A stretch of 64,000 nt of DNA. Source: Vibrio gallaecicus (GTDB taxonomy: Bacteria; Pseudomonadota; Gammaproteobacteria; Enterobacterales; Vibrionaceae). The stretch is taken from NCBI RefSeq assembly GCF_024347495.1, contig NZ_AP025491.1, forward strand, positions 434,001 through 498,000, read 5' to 3'. Position numbers and translations under genes: made by a program. Under the pieces are notes generated by a model. It had not been told where the DNA came from, did not search any database, and worked only from the letters and a program-made list of their open reading frames with translations. Every line of letters begins with the position of its first letter. Position 1 is the stretch's first letter. Positions 812-19,758 of the stretch are shown here, in pieces.

Positions 812-859
812 GTGTTCGGAAAAATCACCTGCAGCAATAAGATTTCTGAGTTGTTTTCT

Positions 860-5303: not shown

Positions 5304-6287
5304 CTAAGCTACCAAGCTTCTCGAATCAACTTCTAATGTGCTGCCTTTAATGATTTGATAGTCTCTTACCGCTAGCCTTATTCTTCCTCGTTTTCTTTCG
5401 ATAAGGTTTGGAACTAACACACCTTCTGGTTCCAATAAGTCTGAAAGTTGTTTGCGTGCCCGGTGTATTTGAATATTAATATGGGTCTCCGCTAGTCCCA
5501 AATCTTTGGTTAATTGTTCAATTGAACGCCAACCCTGCAATGGCTCGGGAACATTGCTTTTTAGATCCTCTGCTTTATAGCGAGCGAGTATGGCTGTTAA
5601 ATAATGATGACTTCGAGTTTGGCAATTTATAGACCGCTGTGCATCTTGGATGATGAGTTCCGTTAGTTCTTCATCTTGGCTGATATTGAAGACATAGCAT
5701 AGGTTATCGGTCGGTTGCGCTTTTAGGCACATCGTTTCCATATCCTCAGTCTCTGTGCTTTTGAATAACTGCCAGGTTTTTTCCGAAAATTTAAGTTGTT
5801 CACCGTCGTTCAAGATACTGCACAAATTGTTCTCAAAATGTTCACATTGCCATTCTTGTTCATCTTGATCATAAAAGACCACCAGTTCAGGGGCCGTATC
5901 ATTGGGTAAGAAGTGGTAACGATCTAGGTAAATTGGCTTAAGGTCTGGTTCAACATAAACCTCTTGCTGCGTTGGCAGTAAAATGTCTTTTGGTGGTTCG
6001 AGACTCTCAATAATGAACGGTTCCTGTTGAGCGTTAGAAAACCAAATTTGATCATGAATATTGAGTAAATGAGGTCGATTGGCTTCTATCATTTGGCCAT
6101 TAATTCGCACGCCATTCTGGCTGAGATCACGAATAAACCACTGCTTCTGGAACTCTATAATGGCGTGTAGTCGCGAAACGTCAGGTAGATTAATGGTTGT
6201 ATTCACAGATGAAGACAGCCGACCAAACTGGTGAAACGCTTTAAGATATATCGGGTGAGTAAATCGTAGATTACTGAGATAAGCCAT
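5304..6287 (-). CDS. FHA-domain protein with C-terminal HTH
   Basis: A 327-residue cytoplasmic protein. Residues about 10-85 are a forkhead-associated domain that binds phosphothreonine peptides: GR at 22-23, SRLH at 38-41 and SQNGVRING at 56-64 are the conserved binding-loop elements. About residues 240-285 look like a DNA-binding helix-turn-helix (GWRSIEQLTKDLGLAETHINIQ, then a basic recognition-like helix), so it may be a phospho-dependent regulator. The ribosome site GAGGGA is well placed. It is the last gene of the minus-strand YcaO/TfuA cluster, whose largest member is a Ser/Thr kinase. The kinase is the obvious source of the phosphorylated ligand, which is an inference from context. 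Confidence 0.8.
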   Translation of the reverse strand: MAYLSNLRFTHPIYLKAFHQFGRLSSSVNTTINLPDVSRLHAIIEFQKQWFIRDLSQNGVRINGQMIEANRPHLLNIHDQIWFSNAQQEPFIIESLEPPKDILLPTQQEVYVEPDLKPIYLDRYHFLPNDTAPELVVFYDQDEQEWQCEHFENNLCSILNDGEQLKFSEKTWQLFKSTETEDMETMCLKAQPTDNLCYVFNISQDEELTELIIQDAQRSINCQTRSHHYLTAILARYKAEDLKSNVPEPLQGWRSIEQLTKDLGLAETHINIQIHRARKQLSDLLEPEGVLVPNLIERKRGRIRLAVRDYQIIKGSTLEVDSRSLVA

Positions 6288-6364
6288 GTGTGTCCCTCAC
6301 TATTTCAGACCTTTATAAGACGTTGCCATTCGCTTTATATTACGAGCCTTAACTTTATATGACG

Positions 6365-6709
6365 TTAAATGGTATAGCCAGTGGCATAGCTAATGGTTTC
6401 TTCAACAATTAATGCGTCTAACATTTCGAGCTGTCGTTGATAATCAGCAACATTCTGAGTAAGCGTTTCTATCGCTCGTTGGAGCCCGGTCTCTACTTGT
6501 TCTGCCGTTTCATCATTTGTTCGCCATAGGTTTTGGATATTTATTGTTTGCACATTCTCTTCTGGGAATGACTTGAGTGAGGTCAGTTGCCACTTTGTTT
6601 CACTGGCAAGTGGGGGGAAAACTAACTTCGCTAGCTCCATGAATTCCTCTTCCTGTTCACGGTCAATCTTCAAGGATGCAATAAGGGTTAATTTTCGTGT
6701 GTAGTTCAT
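6365..6709 (-). CDS. hypothetical protein of the YcaO/TfuA cluster, possible ferredoxin-like fold
   Basis: A 114-residue protein whose start codon overlaps the TfuA-like stop by four bases (ATGA), so it is translated with the cluster. The predicted pattern beta (KLTLIASLKI), helix (REQEEEFMELAKLVF), beta (WQLTSLKSF), beta (QTINIQNLWRT), helix resembles a dimeric alpha/beta-barrel (ferredoxin-like) fold of the monooxygenase/NIPSNAP type, but no family is certain. It has no Cys, which argues against it being the modified peptide substrate of the cluster. Its role is unknown: it could be an accessory enzyme or a binding protein. Confidence 0.65.
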   Translation of the reverse strand: MNYTRKLTLIASLKIDREQEEEFMELAKLVFPPLASETKWQLTSLKSFPEENVQTINIQNLWRTNDETAEQVETGLQRAIETLTQNVADYQRQLEMLDALIVEETISYATGYTI

Positions 6710-8046
6710 AAGTGATTTCCTGATTGTAGGTAAAATTGATAGTCATGCATGGTGGCGGTTTTTAATTCTTCATAGGATGTAAAACCAAGAATTGGCCACA
6801 AATCTTGAGGGTTATGCGTGGGGCTATTGGAGTGTTTGGTAGAAAAAAACCAGCCCCATAGCTGTTGTTCATTAATATTTAGTTCTGATAAAGAGAGTTG
6901 CTGAGTGTCACGTTTAAATGTGATTCGAGACTGGTAGTCTGAATAGCGCTGATTGAGCTTTAATAGATCGATGAGTTCACTATCAAAGTACTGATGGTTA
7001 TCATTTAGCCACGCGAATAGAGACTCATTGGATACGAGTGTTTCAAAATCATGAGTACTGATGTTCTGTGATGCTAACCAAGTAGCTAAATACTCAAAAT
7101 CTAAGTCTTGATTTGTGTAAGCGGATTGTTTGAATGCCAGTTCAAGTAAGGCACTCTGTTTTTGTTTATCCGAAATCGTTGGGTTGTGAATAGAGGCTGT
7201 TCTCAACGCGCTTTTTCGGGACAGAGCCTGTTGTTTCAGATCCCAAAAGCAACCATCTAACTTTAGCTCTCGATGGAGTTCTTCTGTTGTCATGAAATGT
7301 GTGGAGAGTTTTCTTTGGTGATCTAATTGAGAAACTAATCTCTCCCAAGCATCAGTCGGTATAAAACGGTGTCTATTTTCAGCTTTGAGGGGATGCAGAA
7401 GTTTTGGACGCTCAGAAAGTTGTTTGAGAAGTGTGACTGCGTCACGTTTCTTTATATCAATGGAATGATTTTCTGTAAATTCACGCAATGATTGAGCTTT
7501 GGTATCGCCCAAGTATTGTTTTGCATAGTCATGAAGTACGAAGAAAGAACGCTTTGGATAATGAAGCTGCTTTATTGAATCAATAAGATGGTCCGACTCT
7601 TGTTGGTTAAGTATGGTTCTTTCTACAGCTTGCTCTAGGGTCGCGCGAATGTTGACCATTGGAGTCGATGCCTGAGGGTAGCCAAGTTCTTTAGGTCCGT
7701 GAATCAATGCCACTTCATCATCATCTTCCAGAATACCCGCGTAGTAGCTTTCGAATACGTCACCAAAACCTTGCATTCCAAAATGTGTAAGCTCGGCAGC
7801 TCTTAGTGCACCCATGCTTGAACAACCGTACACTTTGATACCAATAGACATGGCGTAGAGTATTTCTTTGTGCCAGACAGCCGGGACATTTTCAAAGTAG
7901 CCGTCAATCAAAACAATAACATTAGGTTGGTCGTAGGTGGCTAGATAAATATCACCTTGCTTGGCGGGCGGTCGACAATCAGCCTTCAAAATATTTTTAA
8001 TGTCAGGTGCGCTAAGTGTTGGTCCTGAAAAAATAATCACACTCAT
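6706..8046 (-). CDS. TfuA-like protein, extended form
   Basis: TfuA-family protein, the usual partner of YcaO enzymes. In characterised pairs the two install backbone thioamides: methanogen McrA glycine and thioviridamide-type peptides. The N-terminal 120 residues carry the family core: IIFSGPTLS (4-12), VLIDGYFENVPAVWHKEIL (45-63) and YGCSSMGALRAAEL (73-86), then an acidic loop EDDDEVALIHGP. The protein is 446 residues, roughly 200 longer than a minimal TfuA. The helical C-terminal 300 residues are unrecognised and may bind substrate. It overlaps YcaO upstream and the 114-aa gene downstream by four bases each, consistent with fixed stoichiometry. Confidence 0.88.
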   Translation of the reverse strand: MSVIIFSGPTLSAPDIKNILKADCRPPAKQGDIYLATYDQPNVIVLIDGYFENVPAVWHKEILYAMSIGIKVYGCSSMGALRAAELTHFGMQGFGDVFESYYAGILEDDDEVALIHGPKELGYPQASTPMVNIRATLEQAVERTILNQQESDHLIDSIKQLHYPKRSFFVLHDYAKQYLGDTKAQSLREFTENHSIDIKKRDAVTLLKQLSERPKLLHPLKAENRHRFIPTDAWERLVSQLDHQRKLSTHFMTTEELHRELKLDGCFWDLKQQALSRKSALRTASIHNPTISDKQKQSALLELAFKQSAYTNQDLDFEYLATWLASQNISTHDFETLVSNESLFAWLNDNHQYFDSELIDLLKLNQRYSDYQSRITFKRDTQQLSLSELNINEQQLWGWFFSTKHSNSPTHNPQDLWPILGFTSYEELKTATMHDYQFYLQSGNHL

Positions 8047-9281
8047 GCTTGTTCTCCTGAACTTGCCAAGGCTTTGATGGCTAATGCTCGTGTTCCCATT
8101 TGATAGCCGGGCAGCTCATCAATGCCTTCTAACCCTGGAACGACTACACGGACCACTGGGATTTGAAATTCACTTTTCTCAAGGTTTACAAAGGCGGCTT
8201 GAGCGAGGTTGACTTGCTTAAGTTTGCTTGTAATCAGCTTAATGTCTTCTTTAAAGCATTGATTGCTCCAAGACTGAATATCGTTAAAGTTTCTCAGTAA
8301 ATGAGGTGGCGGGTTTAGCGGAGTTCCTTTCTCTTTTTCTGAGTCAAGACGTTGATAGGCATTGGCGTTAATATCGTCTCTAGAGCCAGAAATCATGGTT
8401 AATCGGGTTTGCGCAGCTTCTGTTAACGCCCGTAAAAGAGCAATGGATTTGCAAGGATGAGTACCTGATCCGAAAGCTGGATAGGATGGACCTTGGTCTG
8501 AGTTTTGCGATGTTTCCGAGACGATACGGCAATAAAAACTGGGTAACTCAATATCGGTTGTGATATCCCAAACTTGGACATTAACGCCCGCCTGATAATA
8601 TTGGTTGATAACCTCTAGGCAATCTTCATCATCGATTGTTTTAAGATCTAATTGATTGGTTTCTGGATGGTTCGAATAGCGTTGTTCTACTTTCCATAAC
8701 GCTAAAGCATCGCGTTCTATCGCCTCACATAGACCGTGCACTATGGCTTCATCCATGCTGTTACCTGAAGCAAGACCGTTTGAACTCATCGCGAAAGCAC
8801 CGCTGCCAGTGGGTAAAGGAAGCGTGTAGTTGCAATGCACAACCTCATAAGGAACATAAGTGGCTTGTTGAGTGAACAACTCAATTCCTTCAACCCATAG
8901 GCGTTGTTCGTGCGGAGAAAATTGGCTGAACGCTAACTTGGGCAAACCATCGACATTTAGTACTGAATACTTGTTCGATAGCTGAGAATAACTGGCTAGC
9001 TTTAGTGGTAAATCGATGTGTTCAGCGTGATAAGTCTCAATCGCTTCCATTGCTCCAGACACTTTTGCAGACATTAGATCTAAGCCTTTTCCTTGAGCAA
9101 CGGAAATGGCACAAGAATCAGGTCGACATACCGTGACAACTGGAATGCCAATACGATCCAACCCTGTAATATTGGCAACGCGGGTGATTCCCATTTCTTT
9201 AAAAAAAGGAGATATTTTGTCGAAAGTGGACTGTGGAGAACACAGACGATGCGTCCCTTTTTGGTGTCTTTTATAGCTCAT
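8043..9281 (-). CDS. YcaO-domain ATP-dependent peptide-modifying enzyme
   Basis: A 412-residue YcaO protein. YcaO enzymes activate a peptide backbone amide with ATP to form azolines, or thioamides when paired with TfuA. ATP/Mg-binding elements are visible: SGAMEAIETYHAE (75-87), the hallmark NGLASGNSMDEAIVHGLCEAIERDA (168-192, split here as GNSMDEAIVHG and LCEAIERDA) and LTEAAQTR further on. The C-terminus (ALASSGEQA) lacks the PxPxP tail typical of azoline-forming YcaOs, and no cyclodehydratase partner with E1-like domain is nearby. Both points favour thioamidation, as does the overlapping TfuA gene. The ribosome site AAGGA is seven bases before the ATG. A hairpin lies immediately upstream. 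Confidence 0.9.
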   Translation of the reverse strand: MSYKRHQKGTHRLCSPQSTFDKISPFFKEMGITRVANITGLDRIGIPVVTVCRPDSCAISVAQGKGLDLMSAKVSGAMEAIETYHAEHIDLPLKLASYSQLSNKYSVLNVDGLPKLAFSQFSPHEQRLWVEGIELFTQQATYVPYEVVHCNYTLPLPTGSGAFAMSSNGLASGNSMDEAIVHGLCEAIERDALALWKVEQRYSNHPETNQLDLKTIDDEDCLEVINQYYQAGVNVQVWDITTDIELPSFYCRIVSETSQNSDQGPSYPAFGSGTHPCKSIALLRALTEAAQTRLTMISGSRDDINANAYQRLDSEKEKGTPLNPPPHLLRNFNDIQSWSNQCFKEDIKLITSKLKQVNLAQAAFVNLEKSEFQIPVVRVVVPGLEGIDELPGYQMGTRALAIKALASSGEQA

Positions 9282-9306
9282 TCATTGTCCTTCCATGACA
9301 AAGAGT

Positions 9307-9332
9307 AGGAGCCAAGTGATGGTTTGGCTCCT
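9307..9332 (-). other. intercistronic hairpin upstream of the YcaO gene
   Basis: Perfect 9-bp inverted repeat AGGAGCCAA / TTGGCTCCT with an 8-base loop, in the 68-bp gap between the 305-residue gene and the YcaO start. There is no T-run on either side, so it is unlikely to be a full terminator. It may be an mRNA processing or stability element that sets different levels for the upstream and downstream halves of the operon. Confidence 0.6.
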
Positions 9333-9349
9333 TTCGTATTAACTGCGTC

Positions 9350-10267
9350 TTATTTCAAGAAGCTTTGCAGATTGGCAACGGTACAAACTGTGCCAACAAG
9401 TAGGCTTTCTTCCTGTAAATCCTTAGGGTTAACAGCCCCTACTTGAACTCCAGCATCACGATAATAGCGAGCCAGTGATTGTGCGGTTAGCGTGTCACTG
9501 TTTTGCTTTATCGTGTCTAAATAAGGTATGAGATCATCTTGGTGACGATGAATACTGGCTTTTAATTCCTCGATCGTTTCTTGTAATTGATTGAGGTCGT
9601 CTTCTGCACCATGTTCGAGGTTCAATGTCTCTAAACTATTCAAGTTATCTAGGCTCAAATAGTGAATGTGATATGGGTAAAATTGATTGTCATCTCTGAC
9701 CAAAAGTGGATTCACATAGGAAACGATATAGAGGTTCTCAGGAACGGGTTGTTTAAGTTGTTTGACCTCTGATAAAGGAACGTGGTCATTAACGAACTTT
9801 ATGATTGGTGCGGTAGAGTTCGGGTCTAATTTGCTGATAGGGGTGTCTCTAGCGACATCAAGCTGGGGCGATTCACGTAAAGGAGCTCGTAATCGATTAA
9901 GCTGTAAAACGCGCAGGTCGAGTAGGTAACCTGGCTCCAAATCGGTAATGTTAACATCAGGTGGACATTGAGCATTACTTAGGTTCCAAGGTAAGACTTT
10001 AGTCAGCGCTGGTCCCATTATATTGATTTGTTGGAGCTTTTGATCCTCGACTTTAGAACCAAAAAAGAAATGGTAATCGGATGGGCTGTAGCACCATTCA
10101 ATGCATTTCATCGCATCAGAAGTATAGTCTTTGTGATTGATCAGCGTTGCCTGGTGACCATTTTGCCTAATCACATAAATATCTTGTGAACGTAGGGTAA
10201 GTTGTCCTTGATCATCGATGTAAGGGCTCAGTCTTTTTTGAAGCTCTTCTATGGATGGATTGTTCAT
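9350..10267 (-). CDS. hypothetical protein between kinase and YcaO genes
   Basis: A 305-residue cytoplasmic protein with no family I recognise. The ribosome site AAAAGGAC is well placed, and the gene starts 15 bases after the kinase stop, so they are co-transcribed. The first 90 residues look alpha/beta with a WCY segment and several aromatic residues. About residues 215-270 are a strongly charged helix (likely coiled coil) rich in Glu, Gln and Leu, and the C-terminus is a short hydrophobic segment. There is no signal peptide or transmembrane helix. Given its position it could be a leader-peptide-binding or scaffold component of the YcaO/TfuA machinery, or an adaptor for the kinase. That is a guess from context only. 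Confidence 0.65.
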   Translation of the reverse strand: MNNPSIEELQKRLSPYIDDQGQLTLRSQDIYVIRQNGHQATLINHKDYTSDAMKCIEWCYSPSDYHFFFGSKVEDQKLQQINIMGPALTKVLPWNLSNAQCPPDVNITDLEPGYLLDLRVLQLNRLRAPLRESPQLDVARDTPISKLDPNSTAPIIKFVNDHVPLSEVKQLKQPVPENLYIVSYVNPLLVRDDNQFYPYHIHYLSLDNLNSLETLNLEHGAEDDLNQLQETIEELKASIHRHQDDLIPYLDTIKQNSDTLTAQSLARYYRDAGVQVGAVNPKDLQEESLLVGTVCTVANLQSFLK

Positions 10268-10282
10268 ATTTTGTCCTTTTAA

Positions 10283-13200
10283 TTATAAATAACCTAGCGC
10301 TTTTGCATTTGTTAGTGCGTTTTCTACCAATTGTTGATGGTATTCGTGGTTGCTTCTATCGTTGATTATTTCCTTCAGTGGATTAACGACGGAATGAGGA
10401 AGGGCATGTTGGCTGCTATCTAGCAACGTTGTGACCACGGCAATGATGCGCTCTTGAGCGCTATCTCTTTTTTTGTCGGGTTGAGCGTGAGCGAGTAGTT
10501 CAAGTTCAATGAGCAAAGCTAGCCACTGTAGCGGGAATGGAAACTCATTGGATAACGCCTTCCAAATCTGGTTACTTTCTTCAATGAACGTTTGAGAACC
10601 AGAAAAATCGTCTTGTTTATAAGTGAGCCAAGCTTCATTTGCACTGGCGATAGCGACGTAGTCATCCATTCCAGACTCTCGAGCATAGAAGAGGGCTTGC
10701 TTTAAATAAATACGGGTATTATCGATGTCGCCTTGCAGTCGGAAAAGCACAACAAGATAGGCAAGGCAACGGGTTTTAAGTGTCGTATCAGCTTTTTCGT
10801 TGGCGTGTTCTAGTGCCGCTAAAAGATGCTGTTTCGCCGTGGAATACTGTTGGCTGAACAAGCATGTAAACCCTAAACTAAATAAGCAGTGTGTTTGCAG
10901 TGGATGATCATCTGTTTTTAATGAGGCATCGTAAGCTTGTTGAGCTAAGTCGATTTGTTCCTGGCTCAGATCGTAACGATTGTTCCGTAATTCAAATTGT
11001 AGTTTTGCGTCATAAAACTGAGCCTGTGAGAGCGGATCGTTAAAGTGGTCAAGGTGTGCTTCGATAACATGGAGTACGTTCTGCATCTCTGGCAATTTAT
11101 TGCGCCAGTAATAAATATATAACTGACACAGTTGGATGGTTAACCAAGTGTTATACCAGCGCGTGTTCTTAACAGTATTGGTATTCAGCAGTGTTTCAGC
11201 CTGCTCATAGCTTTTTAGCGCCTGAGCATGTAAATGATGGGTTTCTAAAGATTTACCATACTTAACATGCAAACTTGCACTGACTAAAGCATCGCCTAGC
11301 TTGTTCTCTTGAAGAGCATCTAAGTAGTAAGCTCGTGCTTCGTCGTGTTTGGCCAAACGGATTAAGTTATCACCAAGACCAACAAGTGCTGATAGTTTAT
11401 CCGAATTAAAACGATCCTCTTCATTCTCGTGTAATGATATTTTTAGCGATTTTTCAAAGTATTGAATAGCATCATCTACCATGGATGCTTGGGCTGCCTG
11501 CTCTCCGGCTTTTAAGTAATAAGGTGTAGCTCTACTTGGTGAAAGTGTCTTTGCCCAGTGATCCCCAATTAAAGCTGAAGGGTAAGCTGTTTCGGCAATG
11601 TTAGCTTCCATAGCATTGGCGAGCTGTTGATGACTTTTGTGCTGTGTCGTTGAACTTTCATAAATGGCATCACGTATCAGAGCATGTTTGAATTGATACT
11701 GACTCCCTTCAACACTGCGTTGTATAAATATAATATTGGTTCGTTGCAGTTCATCTAAATCTGCTTGAATTTGACCTGTATTTTTATCTGAAGCTTGCTG
11801 AATTAACTTATTACTGAAAGTTCGACCTATGGCAGCTGCAAGCTGTGCTGTGTCTTTTGCAAAGGTCAGGTCATTGAGTTTTTGTTGCAAGGAGCTTCTA
11901 AGGTTTTCTGGCACGTGCGATTCGGGCTCTGATACAACGAAGTCAATATGACCATTCACTTTCTTAACAAGCCCATTTTTTTGTGCATAGAGCACCAATT
12001 CTTCAAGAAAGAGTGGGTTCCCGTCGCTTCTTGTGGTGAGCAGTTGTTTCACTCTGTCGCTAATGGGCATGTTATCGAATAAATGTTCAATTAAATGATG
12101 GCATTCTATCGGTGAGATAGAACTGAGCTCTATCTCAAAAATCTTCGCCTGCTTGAATTCATCTGGGTGCTGTGTTCGTGAAGTGCTTAGCCAGCGAAAG
12201 GGCTGACTCATGTAATTCGAGCTTTCAACTAAATAGCGAATAAACTCTAACGTAGTAGCATCAGACCAATGGAGATCTTCACAAACAAATAGGCATGATC
12301 CCTTACCATTTGCTTCTTGACCTTCACTACAGGCTAACTGTAGGAGGTGGGATAAAGTTAAAAAAAGATACGACTTCTGTTGGCTAAGCGAAAGATTAGA
12401 GATGGATTTCTGGAATTCTTTTTCACTGTGACGAGATAATTTTAAGTAAGGCTGTAACCATGCCCATAGAATGGCGGAACCTCTTTCTTTTTCCAAAGGT
12501 GAAAGTGATAGCGAATCTATTACATGTTTATAATTGTACTCAGCATGTTCACCATTTAGGTCGAAATGGACCGAAAAAAAGTTGAGTAAGGGATAAAGAG
12601 CATTGGTTTGAAATTCTGGTAGACACTGTAGAGGAAAGACATTGGTATGACTTAAACACTCTTTTAGCTCAAGCAGTAAACGAGACTTACCGATACCAGC
12701 TTCACCGTAAATATGAAAGAGTTGATACTGACCGTAAGGACGATTTAAAAGCAAAAGTTTCTCAAGGATTTCTTGACGACCAAAAATCGCATTGTTTGAT
12801 TGTGATTTACGTAAAAATGAGAAGGCTTCAGATAAACGTTCACCTTTAAGCCTGTATCCATAAGGTGCCGCGGGTGTTGAATCGTTCCTAATTGGCTCAA
12901 ATAAAAGTTGATGACTGAGCATGTCTTTAAACAGAGGCGAACAAGCTATTTCCTCTGGTTGAGCATTTCGCGCCAGAGCCATAGCTTCGGTTGAAACGCG
13001 ACCTTCTGGTATTGCTCCATCAATACTTCTCATCATCCCTTTAGACAGGCCTATTCTAAGTTCGAATTTAATGTCATGCAGTTCACTGAGCGATGCTTGC
13101 TTAGAATGAAGATTGTTCCATATATCCAGCGCAGCTCTTGCACTGAGTCGGCTATCGTTATCACTGACTACTGGGTAGCCAAAATAAAATAGCGTTGTAT

Positions 13201-14359
13201 CACCAACGGTTCCAACCTGAGTGGCTCCATAGCGAAGTGCGATATCTACACACTGGTGGTGATGATCTGATAAAAGCATCTCGGCGATGTCTTGCTTATC
13301 GTGTGCGGACTTGTTGGAGTTAGTTCTGTCTTCCGAGAGAATGATACACAGTGCGGTGATTTCCTTGCGCTCCGTGAATTGTGATCTCGTGGATGATAAA
13401 AAACCAGTTTGAGTTATTGATTCTTGCTGTAACGACAAAGCTTGTGTTGATGGGGCGCGCGATGCAGTTGGCACTAGGTCTGAAAAATTGAATCTACGAA
13501 ATTCACGATATAAATCAATAGTGTTGCCAGGGCGTTCTAACGCTTTCTTATGCAGTACTCGTCTAAAGAACTGTGCAGAGTGATGCCCAGCAAGGGTTCC
13601 TAAAGGGATGTTGGCAGCGCTAAGTTGATGATAAAAAATTGATGCAGCACTGTTGCCTTTGATCGTGGGAGTGCCGGTGAGGCATTCTAGAAATACGAGT
13701 CCCCAAGCGTAAACGTCGGTTTGGGGTAAAGATGGCTCGCCTCTTAATTGTTCAGGCGCACTGTATTGAGGTGTACCCAGAGTTTCATCATTCAATGTTA
13801 ATGTTTGGAAGTCAGAATGTTTCCCATCATTTTTGAGCGTACTGATCCCGAAATCGAGGATTTTTACATGCTGCTTTGCACCTACGTTGAAAAGCATTAT
13901 GTTAGCGGGTTTTATATCTCTATGGATGATGCCAAGTTCATGCGCATGAGCTAATGCATCAAGTACACAAGCCATAATTTCAGCGGCTTCAGCTGGAGCT
14001 ATTTGACCTTGAGAGTCGATATATTCCTTTAATGTTGTACCATCAACAAATTCGTATACAGCGTATAGAAGGCACTCGCCTTGCTGACCTTTGTCTAGGA
14101 GAGATACGATATTGGGGTGGTTGAGTCGACGAACCAAATCGCATTCACGTTTAAAACGAGCAATTTTTTTCTGTCTTTTCTGAGGGCATTCAGTTCCTGT
14201 TAATGTAAGAAACTTTATCGCGACGACTTTTTCAGTGCTGAGTTGCAGCGCTTTATAGACTTTTCCGAATCCACCTTCGCCTATTTGCTCTAGTAAAATG
14301 TAATGCTGGGAGTGAAAGCGTGCTTCTATTGTGTCCGTCGTGTCTTCTTTTTGAATCAT
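10283..14359 (-). CDS. Ser/Thr kinase / cyclase-homology / ATPase / TPR protein (TOMM kinase-cyclase type)
   Basis: A protein of 1358 residues with four parts. First, a Hanks-type kinase: Gly loop GEGGFGKV about 27-34, HRDIKPAN 146-153, DFG 170-172, SAPEQ. Second, a class III cyclase-homology domain about 325-500: GDTTLFYFGYPV is recognisable, but the first metal-site strand reads CIILSEDRTN without the usual Asp, so it is probably not catalytic. Third, a STAND-type ATPase with Walker A GEAGIGKSR and Walker B LFVCEDLHW. Fourth, a long TPR array. Size and domain order match the 'TOMM system kinase/cyclase fusion protein' family (about 1350 residues) found beside thiazole/oxazole-modified peptide clusters. 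The start at 14359 has a GTAGG-like site; an ATG seven codons upstream (14380) has none. Confidence 0.85.
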   Translation of the reverse strand: MIQKEDTTDTIEARFHSQHYILLEQIGEGGFGKVYKALQLSTEKVVAIKFLTLTGTECPQKRQKKIARFKRECDLVRRLNHPNIVSLLDKGQQGECLLYAVYEFVDGTTLKEYIDSQGQIAPAEAAEIMACVLDALAHAHELGIIHRDIKPANIMLFNVGAKQHVKILDFGISTLKNDGKHSDFQTLTLNDETLGTPQYSAPEQLRGEPSLPQTDVYAWGLVFLECLTGTPTIKGNSAASIFYHQLSAANIPLGTLAGHHSAQFFRRVLHKKALERPGNTIDLYREFRRFNFSDLVPTASRAPSTQALSLQQESITQTGFLSSTRSQFTERKEITALCIILSEDRTNSNKSAHDKQDIAEMLLSDHHHQCVDIALRYGATQVGTVGDTTLFYFGYPVVSDNDSRLSARAALDIWNNLHSKQASLSELHDIKFELRIGLSKGMMRSIDGAIPEGRVSTEAMALARNAQPEEIACSPLFKDMLSHQLLFEPIRNDSTPAAPYGYRLKGERLSEAFSFLRKSQSNNAIFGRQEILEKLLLLNRPYGQYQLFHIYGEAGIGKSRLLLELKECLSHTNVFPLQCLPEFQTNALYPLLNFFSVHFDLNGEHAEYNYKHVIDSLSLSPLEKERGSAILWAWLQPYLKLSRHSEKEFQKSISNLSLSQQKSYLFLTLSHLLQLACSEGQEANGKGSCLFVCEDLHWSDATTLEFIRYLVESSNYMSQPFRWLSTSRTQHPDEFKQAKIFEIELSSISPIECHHLIEHLFDNMPISDRVKQLLTTRSDGNPLFLEELVLYAQKNGLVKKVNGHIDFVVSEPESHVPENLRSSLQQKLNDLTFAKDTAQLAAAIGRTFSNKLIQQASDKNTGQIQADLDELQRTNIIFIQRSVEGSQYQFKHALIRDAIYESSTTQHKSHQQLANAMEANIAETAYPSALIGDHWAKTLSPSRATPYYLKAGEQAAQASMVDDAIQYFEKSLKISLHENEEDRFNSDKLSALVGLGDNLIRLAKHDEARAYYLDALQENKLGDALVSASLHVKYGKSLETHHLHAQALKSYEQAETLLNTNTVKNTRWYNTWLTIQLCQLYIYYWRNKLPEMQNVLHVIEAHLDHFNDPLSQAQFYDAKLQFELRNNRYDLSQEQIDLAQQAYDASLKTDDHPLQTHCLFSLGFTCLFSQQYSTAKQHLLAALEHANEKADTTLKTRCLAYLVVLFRLQGDIDNTRIYLKQALFYARESGMDDYVAIASANEAWLTYKQDDFSGSQTFIEESNQIWKALSNEFPFPLQWLALLIELELLAHAQPDKKRDSAQERIIAVVTTLLDSSQHALPHSVVNPLKEIINDRSNHEYHQQLVENALTNAKALGYL

Positions 14360-14772
14360 GTACCTACTCTTGAATGCCATCGTTAGGAATATCAGTCTAG
14401 TACTTCAGGATGAGTATCGATATTTATTATCACTAGTTTTGATGGATTCTTCATATTGTATTCATCAATGTTTATATTTCCGTGACTTGGGTTGTATTCT
14501 TTCTTAGGGGGAGTTCAGTAGAGCGTGATGCGGTAAAGAGCGGTTAGTCATTTTAACCATGAATAAACGCGAATGCCTTGCTGTATTAAGACGTCTATTG
14601 CTAACTGCCTTTTAGGCTAAACAGGCTAAACAGGCTAAACAGGCTAAACAGGTTAAACAGAGTAATAGAGTAAGTTGATTAGGGTAATCGGCTCCCCAGT
14701 TTTATCGAAGCACGTTGTTTTGATATCAATAATATTCTGGGTAGCCTTAGGGTACTTAATAGGTTGAGAGTG
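14360..14772. other. spacer between the two halves of the YcaO cluster
   Basis: About 410 bases between the FAD-oxidase stop and the kinase start, the only large gap in the minus-strand cluster. It contains the 9-bp tandem repeat at 14614-14660 and AT-rich DNA that could hold a second promoter for the kinase-to-FHA half. I see no convincing small ORF and no clear terminator. Confidence 0.5.
14614..14660 (+). repeat. 9-bp tandem repeat (AGGCTAAAC), 5 copies
   Basis: Four perfect AGGCTAAAC units, a fifth with one change (AGGTTAAAC) and a two-base remnant. It is intergenic, inside the spacer that separates the precursor/oxidase half from the kinase/YcaO half of the cluster. Confidence 0.93.
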
Positions 14773-16506
14773 TCAGTAAATCGTTTTTCGTGACCGCAAA
14801 TGGTTATAACCTATATCTGAGCCTGGTTGGACGTCTTGGCAAAGACCACTGTATTTTTCTTTGGTCTGAATTAACGATTGATAATGTTGTTGAAAATACT
14901 CTCGTGTTGGGATTGAGCTGTCTTTGAAGCTGATAAATGCGCCTCTAGTACCACATATATGAGTGTCTCGACAGACTTCCATCCAATCTAAAGCTCGGTT
15001 CACATAATTGTATACAGGGTTATGTTGACCTTTTTCAACTTCGTATACTTTTTCGTTCCACCAAGTTTGGTATTGGATTGTGTATTGGGAAGTTGCATAG
15101 GGAAAAGCGACACGCTTACTGGCTGTTTCGTTGGTGTCTTTTGCATAAAATGGCCCTGAAATAGCGCCTAGGGTGACGTAACAGAACAGTCCTAGTGACT
15201 CATTGTCCTCGAAAACTAGGGTCGACGTTAATGATTGGATCAATTGCTCCTTACCAAGGTCACCGAGCCCCTTTTCTGCTACGACTTTCGATGTGATTTT
15301 GTGTGGGGCTGGGGAATCAAAATCAGGGGTAAATGGTTTACTTTGATTGGGAGCCGACGATAAGCGCCTCACATCGTACAGTGAGTTTCTCGCCCAGTGC
15401 CCCATTAATGAAGAATCATAACGGTGTTTACTGTCAGTGCCCGTAATCTTAAGTCTACCCGTTGAAAAGTTTTGTTTAGCAAACTGTTTTAGTTTCTCTT
15501 CGCTACCATCCCAGTATCCGTACATAGTACAGGGGTGCTGGAGATCTCTAATGCACTCTTTTTCGGTAATGAACGTGGAGGGGATCGCGTTGATTTTTAG
15601 GTTAGTTCCAACTAACTCGACAGTGCTTTTATCGTTAATTGTGTTTTCCCATTGTTCTAAAACGCTGTAAGTTGATGCCTGTCCTGTATCTACTTCTTGT
15701 GTATTCCAATCCAATTCAAAACGATGAATTTCATCAGGGATCTCAAAAGCTCGCAGTGTAAACTCTAGAACAATGCCATAACTCAGAGCTCCACCGCCAC
15801 GAAGCGCCCAGAGCAGATCTGAATAATGTTCTTCGTTCACAACCACCAATTCTCCGCTTTCTAATAAGACCCTTGCCTCAATCAAATGTTCACAACACAT
15901 GCCGTGCAAGCGAGTCCATGGTCCCCAACCTCCACCTTGAATATACCCAGCCAGCCCAACCGTCGCACAAGTACCATGAGGTATGGTTAGTGCAGGGCGT
16001 GTGCCATTTTCTGTGTCGGCTAAAATAGGCACCAGTTGGTAGAAGCGATAACCGGCACCAACACGAATCAGATAACCTTTGGAGTCTTGCTTCACGCTAA
16101 TTCTCTTTAATCCACTTAAATCCAATAGAACAACATCATTCCCCGTACATTCTCCTTCGTGATCATGTCCCCCAGATCGTATTTTAACGGGTAAGTTAAA
16201 CTTCACTGCTAATTGATAGGCTGTGATCACGTCTGACTCACTCTTGCACATGACAATCACTGATGGGTAAGCAATAAGCCGAGTATTAAAGATAAGTGTT
16301 TGAGCTTGATATTTACTTAACCCAGGGCTCTGGGAAGGTTGGGAACGATGTGACCCTAAAATCTGGTTTTTATCAACACCAAGTTGGGATAATTGATAGG
16401 CATAGCGCGCAGCGTTGTTTTTATATATTGCCATGAGACGTTGTGCTTCTAGTAATTGCTCATGCGGTGTATCTGATAAATCGAATTGTGTATTCATATC
16501 GTCCAT
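14773..16506 (-). CDS. FAD-dependent oxidase, bicovalent-flavin BBE type
   Basis: A 577-residue FAD-binding-4 (PCMH) oxidase with a berberine-bridge-type C-terminal region. The FAD domain spans about 75-255: RSGGHDHEG with His114, and GGGWGPWTRLHGMCC with Cys204/205, occupy the two positions that carry FAD bicovalently (8-alpha-His, 6-S-Cys) in the glucooligosaccharide-oxidase/BBE group. The C-terminal YFQQHYQSLIQTKEKYS corresponds to the BBE tail. There is no export signal, unlike many family members, so it is cytoplasmic. It overlaps the thiamine-diphosphate enzyme stop by 13 bases (AGGA six bases before ATG). The substrate is unknown; co-translation with a decarboxylase and the small peptide suggests peptide tailoring or supply of a small acyl group. 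Confidence 0.82.
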   Translation of the reverse strand: MDDMNTQFDLSDTPHEQLLEAQRLMAIYKNNAARYAYQLSQLGVDKNQILGSHRSQPSQSPGLSKYQAQTLIFNTRLIAYPSVIVMCKSESDVITAYQLAVKFNLPVKIRSGGHDHEGECTGNDVVLLDLSGLKRISVKQDSKGYLIRVGAGYRFYQLVPILADTENGTRPALTIPHGTCATVGLAGYIQGGGWGPWTRLHGMCCEHLIEARVLLESGELVVVNEEHYSDLLWALRGGGALSYGIVLEFTLRAFEIPDEIHRFELDWNTQEVDTGQASTYSVLEQWENTINDKSTVELVGTNLKINAIPSTFITEKECIRDLQHPCTMYGYWDGSEEKLKQFAKQNFSTGRLKITGTDSKHRYDSSLMGHWARNSLYDVRRLSSAPNQSKPFTPDFDSPAPHKITSKVVAEKGLGDLGKEQLIQSLTSTLVFEDNESLGLFCYVTLGAISGPFYAKDTNETASKRVAFPYATSQYTIQYQTWWNEKVYEVEKGQHNPVYNYVNRALDWMEVCRDTHICGTRGAFISFKDSSIPTREYFQQHYQSLIQTKEKYSGLCQDVQPGSDIGYNHLRSRKTIY

Positions 16507-18266
16507 GACGGTTCCTCAACTGAAGTATGCTGCGCGTTGTTAATTGGGCACTCGTTAATATCTTGCTCGGTGACCGACCCAGCGATGGATCGAGTCTCAG
16601 GTGCTGAATCGGGTTTGTTTATGTCGACTTGCACTAAAGTGGGCTGAGTGGATTCAACCGATATTTTGTCAAGAACACCGTCTAAATCCCCGATAGTTTC
16701 AACATGCAAATATGCAGTGTTAAACGCCTCTGCTAGCGCTTTATAATTCCATGATGGAAGACCGTTAAAAGGGGCAAGTTGGTCGCCTGATGTTAATGCA
16801 CAGCTATCAACAGATGATTGTTCAATGGCATAAACATCGTTTGTCATAACAAAAACTACGCTATTAGAATGATGTTTGGATAGCGTGGACAGGGCTTGGC
16901 ACATCATCATTAGCCCGCCGTCTCCAGTAACCACAATACTTTGGCGTTGGCTCGCCATAGAAATACCAAGGGCGCAGCCAGTTTCATGACCGATTGATCC
17001 CCATGCGTCGTCACAGATAAAATGGCTTTCATTAAATCCGGACAAACGCGCAGCCATATTTAGCGATGAACTTTCACCTAATATGAGGTTACTGTTTTGG
17101 ATAGTATCGTTATGCTCAAGTGCCCGTTGATAGGCTGAAAAAAAAACTTCATAAGTGATTTTTTCATGATGTTCGGGGAAAGGAAGTCGATTATCGTTAA
17201 GTAACGTAGAACACCAGTTAGTAATTGGAGAAGGCGACTTGAAGCCATAGGTCAACTGGTCAATAGTATCGACTAAACTAACCTGCAAATAAGGGTCATT
17301 CTTTTCGCCTAGTGCATCATTCATATTCACTCTGATGAGTTGATTTTGTTTGTGTTGAAGCAGGGAGAGGTAATCGTCAGTGAACATAGCGCCTAACGCT
17401 AGAATAAAGTCAGCCTCTTCGATTATGTCTAGGGTAGCTTGGCTGGACGCCTCTCCAGAATATGTTCCAATAAAATTCTCTTTTCCTACTCCATGAGCTT
17501 CACTTATCAGTGATTTCGCTAGGGTAGTGGTCGTATACGGAATATTTAATGTTTCGATGAGTGTCGTGATTTCTTGCTGGAGACCAAGACGCGAGAGCTC
17601 TATCCCGAGCATAAGCAGCGGGCGTTTTGCTTGGCGCAGCTGGTGCTCTATTGCGGTTATTAAATTTGTTTGCATCGCTTTGGAAGGAGCAAGCGTGATT
17701 TGTGACAATGGCTGACGTGGGGGCGGTACTAATTCTCCCCAGACGTTTTGCCAGGCTTCAAGGTATATTGGACGTCGGTGTAGCAGAGCGGCTTCTAAGG
17801 CGCTATCGATTTGTGCTGGAGCACTAACATGGTGACTAAGTATTTCCGCAGCAATGGTAACGTGTTCAAAAATGGTTTTGTCACAATCGGGATTGCCAAT
17901 TGAGTGGTGAAACTGTGCGTGGGTTTGTTGTAGTACTTTTCTATCATTTAATGAGGGGCTGGCTGTGATAACAACGATTGGGTTTCGTTCAACGTAGGCA
18001 CCAGCGATGGCATTTAATACATTAAAAGTGCCGACTCCATATTGGACTGAGACCGCACCAATACCTTTGAAGCGCGCATATCCGTCTGCAGCATAACCTG
18101 CGCCGAGTTCAGTTATGTCACCAACGGCGTCAATACCCTCGAAACGTTCTAAGGCTGTTATAAATTCTTCTACATAGTCGCCAGGCACTTGAAAGATTTT
18201 ATCAAGGTTTAGCTCTTTAAGACGTAACAACAAGTAATCGGCAACACTGATCCATTGAGTATTCAT
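16494..18266 (-). CDS. thiamine-diphosphate-dependent 2-oxoacid decarboxylase (PDC/IPDC type)
   Basis: A 590-residue ThDP enzyme of the pyruvate/indolepyruvate decarboxylase group. The N-terminal PYR domain has the activating Glu in ITELGAGYAADGYAR (about 47-61) and the HH pair in QFHHSIG (about 113-119) characteristic of decarboxylases rather than acetolactate synthases. The C-terminal PP domain has VVTGDGGLMMM and the downstream ND..AIEQ stretch for Mg-diphosphate. The last 30 residues extend past the usual end. It overlaps the 66-codon gene upstream by four bases and the FAD oxidase downstream by 13. The 2-oxoacid used is unknown. A dedicated decarboxylase is an unusual partner for a YcaO cluster. 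Confidence 0.86.
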   Translation of the reverse strand: MNTQWISVADYLLLRLKELNLDKIFQVPGDYVEEFITALERFEGIDAVGDITELGAGYAADGYARFKGIGAVSVQYGVGTFNVLNAIAGAYVERNPIVVITASPSLNDRKVLQQTHAQFHHSIGNPDCDKTIFEHVTIAAEILSHHVSAPAQIDSALEAALLHRRPIYLEAWQNVWGELVPPPRQPLSQITLAPSKAMQTNLITAIEHQLRQAKRPLLMLGIELSRLGLQQEITTLIETLNIPYTTTTLAKSLISEAHGVGKENFIGTYSGEASSQATLDIIEEADFILALGAMFTDDYLSLLQHKQNQLIRVNMNDALGEKNDPYLQVSLVDTIDQLTYGFKSPSPITNWCSTLLNDNRLPFPEHHEKITYEVFFSAYQRALEHNDTIQNSNLILGESSSLNMAARLSGFNESHFICDDAWGSIGHETGCALGISMASQRQSIVVTGDGGLMMMCQALSTLSKHHSNSVVFVMTNDVYAIEQSSVDSCALTSGDQLAPFNGLPSWNYKALAEAFNTAYLHVETIGDLDGVLDKISVESTQPTLVQVDINKPDSAPETRSIAGSVTEQDINECPINNAQHTSVEEPSWTI

Positions 18267-18463
18267 GATTGACTCCCTTCATAAGCACATTCTGTGACTT
18301 TATTGAGTGTGTCGGAGGAAGTATTCAACTGGTCAATTGAAGCTTTAACCGAACAATTCCATGCTCTGCAATCAACGGAGAAATGGTTGGCTTTCCATTC
18401 ATGCCAAGCTCCTCCAAATGGATCAATTCCCCCAACGATAGCAATATCAAGATCATCATTCAT
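18263..18463 (-). CDS. candidate RiPP precursor peptide
   Basis: A 66-residue peptide encoded first in the operon, ending in a four-base overlap with the decarboxylase start. The N-terminus MNDDLDIAIVGG resembles a double-glycine leader (acidic/hydrophobic stretch before GG at 11-12). The remainder holds a second GG (17-18), three Trp, three Cys (32, 37, 59) and a Ser/Thr-rich tail, that is, the residues YcaO-type enzymes modify. The ATG at 18463 is used; AAAGGA lies 14 bases upstream, a long spacing, and a TTG at 18487 would extend it by eight residues. It has no resemblance to any enzyme I know. Precursor status is inferred from size, position and composition; no C39 peptidase-exporter is visible in the window. 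Confidence 0.6.
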   Translation of the reverse strand: MNDDLDIAIVGGIDPFGGAWHEWKANHFSVDCRAWNCSVKASIDQLNTSSDTLNKVTECAYEGSQS

Positions 18464-19008
18464 TTCGATTCTATCCGTCCTTTTCAATGAACATCAAAAT
18501 GTACAGCAGGCGTTTTGTTATTCCATTACACCTTATTACAGCTTGGGGAATGTGAGGTTCAGGTTGCAATTTTTGAGGAGAGGAGAGGAGGATAACAAGC
18601 CAAGTAAACTTGCTGAATTCATGGCTACCAATCTCATTAAAGGATTAAAGGATTAAAGGATTAAAGGATTAAAGGATTAAAGCGACAAAGCAACGAAGCA
18701 GAAAAGCAGAAAGCACCTTAGTCTCTGAATCGTGATGTGTAATATCGTGTAATAGTTCTGAAGATTATCGGACGGTATATTCCTTGAAAGCGCGAACAAT
18801 GTACGTTTCCTAAAGGTTAGACGGTCTGCTAATAGCTAGACCAACAAGGAACACAATGTCTCGTGAACCTGACCCTATTAAATGCGATGAAGACGATTTG
18901 AACCAGATCTACAGTATTCGGTTGTCTTTTTATAAGCCATCGTGTCTGCGCAATATCAGCAAAGGGATAAGGTTTTTTGATCAACGGAGCTATATCAAGG
19001 AATCTCGA
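18464..19008. other. divergent intergenic region upstream of the YcaO operon
   Basis: About 545 bases between the minus-strand operon head and the signal peptide of the collar-domain protein. It contains a purine-rich GAGGAGAGGAGAGGAGG tract at about 18572-18590, the 8-bp tandem repeat at 18636-18682, and an open stretch from an ATG at 18856 (good AAGGA site) that runs in frame into the downstream gene. The operon promoter must lie here, but I could not assign -35/-10 boxes with confidence. Confidence 0.5.
18636..18682 (+). repeat. 8-bp tandem repeat (ATTAAAGG), 5.9 copies
   Basis: Five perfect ATTAAAGG units and a seven-base partial sixth. It lies about 170 bases upstream of the start of the candidate precursor gene, in the region that should hold the operon promoter, so copy-number change could alter promoter spacing. 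Confidence 0.93.
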
Positions 19009-19758
19009 ATGCGCATCAATAAATGGATATTTAAGCTAACACCAATAGCTGTAATGATTGGCATGTTCTCGCCTGGAAGTGCATCGGCGGGATGCAGCTC
19101 TGAACCATATATAGGGTCTATGTGTGTGACGGCTGCAAGTTACTGTCCCTCTTCCTATTATATGCAAGCAGACGGCGCACTTTTATATATCGATGACTAC
19201 ACAGCATTGTTCTCTCTTCTGGGGACTAATTTCGGTGGAGATGGCAGAGTCAATTTTAAGTTGCCAGATATGAGAGGTCGTACTGCGGTTGGTGTAGGTA
19301 CTGGCCCTAGTTTAAGTTTGATTCAACTTGGGGAAATGGGAGGGCATGAATCAATCCACCTCACGGAAGATAATTTACCGGCCCATACTCATAACGTTGG
19401 TAATGGCGTAGTAATGAATGTAAGCAATGCTAATGTCGATGTCGCCGTGGAAATTCCTCTATTTGCTGATCGTGGAACGAGTAATCAAGTACCAGCGAGC
19501 GGAGAAACTTTCTTGCACACGGTAGGTAAAGATAATGTGAGTGCTAATGAAGACGCTAAGATCTATGGGAACGGAGAGAGTGCGCAAGGGGCACATTTGG
19601 TTGGCACAGGTGCGGGTAAGTTACAGTTCAATCAAAACAACTTCATAACAGGTAAGGTTGATTCAACAGGAAAGGATGAGAAGCTTACAAACCGACAACC
19701 TTACGTTGGCTTAACTCATTGTATTGCGGTATTTGGGCTTTATCCTCCTAGACCGTAA
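19009..19758 (+). CDS. exported phage tail-collar-domain (microcystin-dependent-protein-like) protein
   Basis: About 249 residues from the ATG at 19009 (AAGGA seven bases upstream). There is a clear signal peptide, MRINKW then a hydrophobic core ending SASA, followed by a tail-collar domain: IGSMCVTAASYCPSSYYMQADG, LFSLLGTNFGGDGR, LPDMRGRTAVGVG and LPAHTHN are the family landmarks (the first is split IGSMCVTAASYC / PSSYYMQADG). Family members occur in phage tails and as free-standing bacterial proteins of unknown role. A second ATG at 18856 in frame, also with an AAGGA site, would add 51 residues ahead of the signal. It may be a leader ORF or relic. No phage genes are adjacent. Confidence 0.8.
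   Translation: MRINKWIFKLTPIAVMIGMFSPGSASAGCSSEPYIGSMCVTAASYCPSSYYMQADGALLYIDDYTALFSLLGTNFGGDGRVNFKLPDMRGRTAVGVGTGPSLSLIQLGEMGGHESIHLTEDNLPAHTHNVGNGVVMNVSNANVDVAVEIPLFADRGTSNQVPASGETFLHTVGKDNVSANEDAKIYGNGESAQGAHLVGTGAGKLQFNQNNFITGKVDSTGKDEKLTNRQPYVGLTHCIAVFGLYPPRP

Follow-up and report, generated by a model that had tools for sequence, protein, structure and literature searches.

A kinase-linked YcaO-TfuA gene module of marine Gammaproteobacteria with a candidate protein substrate encoded beside the enzymes

In the characterised cases described in PMC8120280 and PMC13063428, TfuA belongs to thioamide-forming pairs with YcaO. Adjacent YcaO and TfuA genes are found in the clusters for thioviridamide and thiovarsolin, which are ribosomally synthesized and post-translationally modified peptides (RiPPs), and over a thousand proteobacterial YcaO-TfuA clusters are counted in PMC8120280. 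Its main text names no Vibrio, Photobacterium, Pseudoalteromonas, Marinomonas, Gammaproteobacteria or kinase. Protein substrates have also been described. A YcaO-TfuA pair (TIGR03266/NF033432) is responsible for glycine thioamidation of McrA, a protein treated in PMC5589413, and E. coli YcaO, without TfuA, thioamidates the folded protein uL16 outside RiPP clusters; structured proteins are suggested there as substrates of further YcaOs (PMC13063428). Two other known systems are relevant: the kinase/cyclase fusions (TIGR03903) of thiazole/oxazole-modified microcin (TOMM) systems, and the mycobacterial PknH-EmbR relay, in which a Ser/Thr kinase is linked with an FHA regulator. Here we analyzed a 64,000-nt stretch of Vibrio gallaecicus DNA (GCF_024347495.1, NZ_AP025491.1, 434,001 to 498,000), called the window below, to which all coordinates refer. 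It carries a four-gene core encoding a kinase/pseudo-cyclase (KinCyc), a 305-residue protein (d305), YcaO and TfuA. This core recurs in the same order in 20 loci, and d305 is the best candidate substrate for YcaO-TfuA as judged from sequence. The nine minus-strand genes that the initial annotation had placed in a 13-kb block were all confirmed as open reading frames (ORFs) at their coordinates (5304..18463). The core and its accessory genes are as follows.

10283..14380, minus strand: KinCyc, 1365 aa; Ser/Thr kinase, pseudo-cyclase, AAA_16 (STAND-like) ATPase and TPR (Pfam/NCBIfam)
9350..10267, minus strand: d305, 305 aa; candidate substrate or partner of YcaO-TfuA; no family assigned, 23 clusters
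9359..9385, minus strand: C-terminal tail of d305, CTVANLQSF, residues 295-303; proposed modification site (pattern search)
8043..9281, minus strand: YcaO, 412 aa; PF02624, TIGR03266, nearest solved relative MJ1094
6706..8046, minus strand: TfuA, 446 aa, with a C-terminal extension of ~230 aa; PF07812, NF033432
6365..6709, minus strand: b114, 114 aa; accessory, present at 6 of 20 core loci
5304..6287, minus strand: FHA regulator, 327 aa; FHA domain and C-terminal b-b-b-a-a-a-b-b region

The window YcaO was searched against 227 genomes of the genus, and ten had matches at E <= 1e-20 (genomes and loci are given by our G and L handles). Nine of the ten hold the core in order. The tenth, G105, has two more distant YcaO-TfuA loci (L021 and L022) and no KinCyc or d305 match; these loci lie ~45 kb apart, and their YcaO is of a different, long-branched type. 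In a profile search, d305 (E<=0.001) was found in 9/227 genomes, exactly the nine with this YcaO type. A d305 profile search gave 13 named loci, of which 11 were counted because L029 and L030 are V. penaeicida contigs already among the genus-search loci. The 11 belong to Photobacterium, Pseudoalteromonas, Marinomonas and an Alteromonadaceae metagenome-assembled genome (MAG) and keep the same order, with the limit that loci lacking d305 outside the genus could not enter among them. The order KinCyc-d305-YcaO-TfuA is therefore kept in 20 loci (the window, L013-L020, L023-L028 and L031-L035; nine found via YcaO and 11 via d305) from Vibrio, Photobacterium, Pseudoalteromonas, Marinomonas and the Alteromonadaceae MAG. 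Some are imperfect: the KinCyc and YcaO frames are broken in L026, L027, a 4.8-kb contig, has only part of KinCyc, and glyoxalase-family and subtilase-family genes separate d305 from YcaO in L032. Accessory genes in the fetched stretches are less constant (FHA 13, b114 6, FAD-linked oxidase 3, intact thiamine diphosphate (ThDP) enzyme 1). In summary, the recurrence of YcaO and TfuA with the kinase/cyclase that the initial annotation had proposed as a check was found, in five genus-level groups. In partial support of its view of an undescribed cluster type, no description of the KinCyc-d305-YcaO-TfuA set was found in the open-licence literature searched. The recurring core is real and, as far as searched, undescribed.

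Domain families assigned from motifs in the initial annotation (YcaO, TfuA, kinase, FHA, ThDP enzyme and FAD oxidase) were confirmed by Pfam/NCBIfam, with 251 bits for YcaO (PF02624) and 156 bits for TfuA (PF07812). The two genes are adjacent with a 4-base overlap, which resembles the RiPP clusters. The best NCBIfam models for both proteins are those of the McrA pair, although both stay below the curated cut-offs: YcaO has 250.5 bits on TIGR03266 (cut-off 365) and TfuA 223.1 bits on NF033432 (cut-off 235.2). YcaO is also below the cut-off of the SagD model TIGR03604 (113.3 vs 219.25 bits) and matches the E. coli-type model NF040716 weakly (27 bits). The nearest solved relative of YcaO is MJ1094 (6pe3), and the structural match of TfuA (6xp8) covers positions 4-213 only. 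Together, YcaO-TfuA is a probable sulfur-inserting enzyme pair. It shares with the McrA pair a protein rather than a peptide as substrate, which here is a candidate, and differs from it in being bacterial and beside a kinase. Unlike in the E. coli case, the genes for enzyme and candidate substrate are neighbours. Unlike the RiPP clusters, the set lacks a precursor peptide as far as found; in its place are a kinase and a protein of 242-347 aa whose tail is conserved. Among the best 120 of 7266 matches are YcaOs of myxobacteria, Azospirillum and Paracoccus with 42-50% identity. At two annotated plasmid loci a distant YcaO adjoins TfuA, with a cyclase/AAA or cyclase/TPR gene nearby; d305 was sought there by tail pattern alone. 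The d305-linked YcaOs cluster in a 50-row tree, in which a single clade is not proven. In Azospirillum lipoferum (L120, 3232-9979), YcaO-TfuA lies near a cyclase/AAA gene apparently interrupted by an IS5 transposase, and the stretch also has a Crp/Fnr gene and two ribbon-helix-helix genes.

No Pfam or NCBIfam family matches d305 at a meaningful E-value. In a search of 5.8 billion proteins it formed 23 clusters, the window's own included, and all named ones are from Vibrio, Photobacterium or Marinomonas. Across loci d305 is 242-347 aa long and ends in C-x-[VI]-x-N-[LV]-x-[ST]-[FM] plus 1-6 residues in 23/23 locus rows (21 distinct; L029, L030 and L101 included). The motif is present in 22/23 rows of alignment A4, where P0023 has Ala in place of Ser/Thr. 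A linker of 9-36 residues precedes the tail (the length of 172 for L027 is a regular-expression artefact). Mean top-residue frequency is 0.79 in the tail, 0.44 in whole d305 and 0.36 in the linker. Searching the DNA for a tail pattern recovered the d305 genes of the nine core genomes, plus a second d305 in G127. This second locus (L101) has the order KinCyc-d305-FHA and no YcaO-TfuA in its 20-kb stretch, and the tail is kept as CMVANLMSFL, as expected of a second substrate served in trans. Because d305 is a dedicated gene product with a conserved tail on a variable linker and has a second copy without its own enzyme pair, it suits an enzyme substrate. That the tail is what YcaO-TfuA modifies is a tentative assignment, to which we give somewhat less than an even chance.

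Several points weigh against d305 as the substrate. In the AlphaFold2 model (predicted local distance difference test score, pLDDT, 80.7; no PDB match at E<=0.001), the tail appears as a strand plus helix with pLDDT 68-74. Segments of d305 starting at residues 88-89 and 111-112 are conserved equally or more (0.79-0.82). Related YcaO-TfuA pairs occur without d305 in the stretch (L092, L093, L120 and L121), and the near-copy loci L013/L014, L018-L020 and L025/L031 mean that locus counts are not independent. Modification of d305 is read from gene content and conservation, i.e., d305 is a candidate only. The same features would also suit a docking protein, and the tail could be a docking motif. 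It is thus possible, though not probable, that d305 is a non-substrate adaptor or recognition partner of YcaO-TfuA or KinCyc whose tail docks, and that YcaO-TfuA modifies KinCyc or a protein encoded elsewhere. This is consistent with d305 adjoining KinCyc even without YcaO in L101, with the other conserved segments, and with the statement in PMC5589413 that YcaOs often require partner proteins. However, no recognition-element family was detected in d305, and no other shared target appeared among the neighbouring genes, the only genes examined.

The chemistry and fate of the tail could also differ from thioamidation of a lasting protein. Cys295 of the tail is invariant in 23/23 rows, which would suit formation of an azoline rather than a thioamide. 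We regard this as very unlikely, as the YcaO scores 250 bits on the McrA thioamidation model vs 113 on SagD, both below cut-off, and TfuA pairs form thioamides in the characterised cases of PMC8120280 and PMC13063428. Alternatively, d305 may be a RiPP precursor of unusual length. Its modified C-terminal end would then be released by cleavage to serve as a peptide signal or metabolite, for which the TPR of KinCyc is a possible sensor. A short conserved C-terminal sequence does follow a variable linker, KinCyc has TPR matches, and TPR receptors bind peptide pheromones in RRNPP systems. This reading is nevertheless improbable: neither the locus maps nor the 10 neighbours scanned show a protease or exporter conserved with the core, and the putative core peptide is nearly invariant whereas most RiPP cores vary. 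A separate small precursor gene was not found among the small ORFs of 21 loci spanning 10 clades. None of 1090 such ORFs had relatives in more than 3/10 clades; two reached three clades, and the one real gene of the two encodes a glyoxalase-family protein. ORFs overlapping large ORFs by >35% were skipped, hence b114 of L023/L024 was missed there and found by another search. In this screen no small ORF was kept across the clades. A precursor family is expected beside a TOMM kinase. No NCBIfam precursor match was obtained for the 66-codon ORF described below, b114 or the nine d305 rows of alignment A1, the presence of such models in the library being unconfirmed.

KinCyc matches kinase, AAA_16 and TPR models, and its score on TIGR03903 (TOMM_kin_cyc) is 618.1 bits, below the cut-off of 705.75. 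VAIK, HRD and DFG patterns are present in all full-length rows, except that the HRD pattern is missed in L035. KinCyc is therefore an active-looking Ser/Thr kinase by its motifs. The residue that we take to be the first metal-binding Asp of the cyclase is absent in 21/21 aligned rows (L101 is included, and the V. penaeicida loci appear twice), and the Pfam cyclase model does not match the window KinCyc, though kinase-less relatives match. On these two grounds the cyclase part is classed as a pseudo-cyclase from its sequence. A TOMM-type kinase/cyclase fusion had been proposed; the architecture stands, while the score falls short of the family and the cyclase is a pseudo-cyclase. The system also differs from TOMM systems in that its YcaO is TfuA-linked and below the SagD cut-off. 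Among the 227 genomes, KinCyc (E <= 1e-100) occurs in the nine core genomes and in G125, where it is with FHA but without YcaO. The same holds for G259, on a 16.8-kb contig, whose KinCyc exceeds the TIGR03903 cut-off and also has an FHA neighbour.

Some related loci show other arrangements. In G319 (L092, 328-6334), a kinase-less SAM/cyclase/ATPase/TPR gene that retains the metal Asp is directly followed by YcaO and TfuA, with no d305 match. Proteins with an SCIGCH motif, which we read as haem-c-like, adjoin KinCyc/FHA in two genomes (L091 4602-6692, L066 1245-3113); the first (L091) has no Pfam family, and the parts scanned have no NCBIfam family. Pseudoalteromonas sp. SMS1 possibly has a classical TOMM locus beside the KinCyc-d305-YcaO-TfuA module. 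The stretch adjoining its core (L028, 13929-20728) encodes a protein of 689 aa whose YcaO domain is SagD-like (182 bits, cut-off 219), together with a fragment of an FHA protein and a second TOMM_kin_cyc-like protein, of which the C-terminal part is present.

The block had been described as mostly joined by overlaps. Overlaps of 4, 4, 13 and 4 bases do exist, at 4/8 junctions only; the other four have gaps of 15, 68, 77 and 392 bases. The largest of these, which separates KinCyc from the FAD gene, splits the block. It consists of two neighbouring units, the core side and a cassette of a 66-codon ORF, a ThDP enzyme and a flavin adenine dinucleotide (FAD) oxidase. The second unit and its divergent neighbour are as follows.

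14773..16506, minus strand: FAD-linked oxidase, 577 aa, second unit; PF01565
16494..18266, minus strand: ThDP-dependent decarboxylase-like enzyme, 590 aa, second unit; three ThDP domains, 59% homologue in G152
18263..18463, minus strand: 66-codon ORF, internally deleted flavin amine oxidase relic; alignment to 605-aa oxidase of G152
18525..18540, minus strand: direct repeat TGTAATAAGGTGTAAT, putative operator of the second unit; one of two exact genome-wide matches
18738..18753, plus strand: direct repeat TGTAATATCGTGTAAT, putative operator of the divergent collar gene; the other exact genome-wide match
18856..19758, plus strand: tail-collar-domain protein, putative regulon member; PF07484, homologue likewise divergent in L013 and L014

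The initial annotation favoured the 66-codon ORF as a RiPP precursor whose thioamidated product would be tailored by the ThDP and FAD enzymes. The ORF overlaps the ThDP gene by 4 bases, and YcaO and TfuA are nearby. b114, d305 and this ORF have no match at E<=0.01 in the Pfam/NCBIfam scan, where the FAD gene matches FAD_binding_4 (86 bits) and the ThDP enzyme matches three domains. In G152, ThDP (58.6%) and FAD (59.5%) homologues follow the gene for a flavin amine oxidase of 605 aa (PF01593, 84 bits; VioA as the best NCBIfam model, 92 bits vs cut-off 600), and this genome has no match to YcaO (E <= 1e-20), d305 (E <= 0.001) or KinCyc (E <= 1e-100). The 66-codon ORF aligns to this oxidase (46.8% over 47 aa, E 1e-10) in three separate blocks, oxidase residues 1-11, 478-492 and about 561-600, so internal deletions kept the frame and the ThDP overlap. 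The ORF is almost certainly a relic of a flavin amine oxidase gene that is intact in G152, and we rejected it as a precursor. Furthermore, its one homologue among proteins of similar length is 95% identical (such a search could not show the long oxidase). In G039 and G192, ORFs of 70 and 82 codons are what is left of the region; the FAD gene beside them is intact, and YcaO-TfuA stays open. The 70-codon ORF retains ThDP C-terminal sequence. A peptide product of the 66-codon ORF is hardly credible.

The decarboxylase/oxidase pair is likewise no part of the set, as the pair occurs in G152 without a core match and in the fetched stretches of the core loci the ThDP enzyme is intact at 1/20 and the FAD oxidase present at 3/20. 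FAD homologues lie at YcaO-free loci in G152 and G125. The cassette is very probably separate from the YcaO core. It may be a pathway of amino-acid oxidase, decarboxylase and oxidase, to judge from the families of its genes, and it is decaying in this clade. Short tandem arrays occupy promoter gaps at 14605-14665 and 18628-18691, with about 5 copies of a 9-base unit and about 6 copies of an 8-base unit, respectively. Adjacent DUF1800 and DUF1501 genes lie upstream of the block (812-3822).

The FHA domain of the regulator (PF00498, 43 bits) has EmbR among its tied best structural matches. The C-terminal b-b-b-a-a-a-b-b secondary structure fits a winged helix, and this region may be one; the structural match list covered mainly residues 1-99. 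The arrangement differs from PknH-EmbR. The window protein has FHA first and the DNA-binding-like part last, whereas the EmbR FHA is at the C-terminal end (residues 289-382), and the window kinase is fused to pseudo-cyclase, ATPase and TPR. TGTAAT-N4-TGTAAT has exactly two matches in the own genome (2 contigs, 5.13 Mb, one YcaO match), both between the cassette and the divergent collar gene. With <=1 mismatch, 23 kinase/FHA loci (442 kb) contain 31 matches, 27 of them intergenic. Shuffling gave 3.9 on average (maximum 7), the reversed pattern has 2, and 12 control loci contain one. The motif was first spotted in the window, L013 and L014, which contribute nine of the 31; the other 20 loci contribute 22. 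Sites are found upstream of the FAD gene and a 696-aa gene in G125, of FHA in G259, of choloylglycine-hydrolase-family genes in V. penaeicida and of a flavin amine oxidase in G127, and also in Photobacterium, Pseudoalteromonas and Marinomonas loci. Downstream of FHA, TGTAAT repeats precede a lipoprotein-like gene and a gene for a collagen-repeat protein in L013 (17182-19211) and L014 (17725-19370).

Of the 26 exact matches that the nine core genomes contain, 12 fall inside the 20-kb loci (in-locus/total: G000 2/2, G039 4/4, G192 3/5, G115 1/1, G117 1/2, G127 1/7, G201 0/3, G001 0/1, G116 0/1). Among the six further G127 sites, three precede two proteins just below the aegerolysin cut-off and one GH18 protein; the others are inside an ORF, between divergent genes also present in G001, and before a family-less 91-codon ORF. 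Exact matches number 3 in G125 (reversed control 1) and 5 in ten genomes without core or KinCyc (reversed control 5). Against a role as FHA operator speak the 14/26 exact matches outside the loci, with 11 for the reversed control in the same nine genomes, and the absence of any repeat at <=1 mismatch in the KinCyc loci L015, L016, L033, L034, L035 and L101. In addition, no FHA gene is in the fetched stretch of L016, L017, L025, L027 (the 4.8-kb contig), L031 or L035, and L028 holds only a 101-aa FHA fragment; in G127 (L017), FHA is present at the second locus instead. The repeat follows KinCyc/FHA, not YcaO. We consider a kinase/FHA regulatory module likely, and the repeat is a candidate FHA operator with a fairly good chance of being one.

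As a whole, the block is best explained as two units, kinase/FHA signalling with d305 modified by YcaO-TfuA plus a regulated cassette, an account that we put a little short of even. KinCyc would signal to the FHA regulator, possibly by a phospho-relay, and the regulator would bind TGTAAT-N4-TGTAAT repeats and switch variable effector genes. YcaO, encoded next to d305, would together with TfuA modify the backbone of the d305 tail on its flexible linker, a thioamide being the most likely product, and the modified tail would gate or complete the kinase complex. One regulated output would be the small-molecule cassette, which would originally have comprised an amine oxidase with the ThDP and FAD enzymes and is decaying here. 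Of this account, the gene content, gene order, co-occurrence, conserved tail, relic and enrichment of the repeat are observed, and the relay, the binding to the operator and the modification of d305 with its effect are proposed. The specific proposal that backbone thioamidation is a regulatory modification in marine Gammaproteobacteria, with d305 switched via its tail by YcaO-TfuA in a kinase/FHA regulon at TGTAAT-N4-TGTAAT, is doubtful at present. This case cautions against taking any small ORF beside YcaO as a precursor. The module offers d305 as a specific and testable substrate candidate: its tail is defined, its gene lies beside that of the enzyme, and the two match 9 for 9 across 227 genomes. 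Even without d305 as substrate, the module with its regulator and candidate operator is a regulatory system for which no description was found. If the proposal is true, peptide-bond thioamidation would enter signal transduction, beyond antibiotics, the ribosome and McrA.

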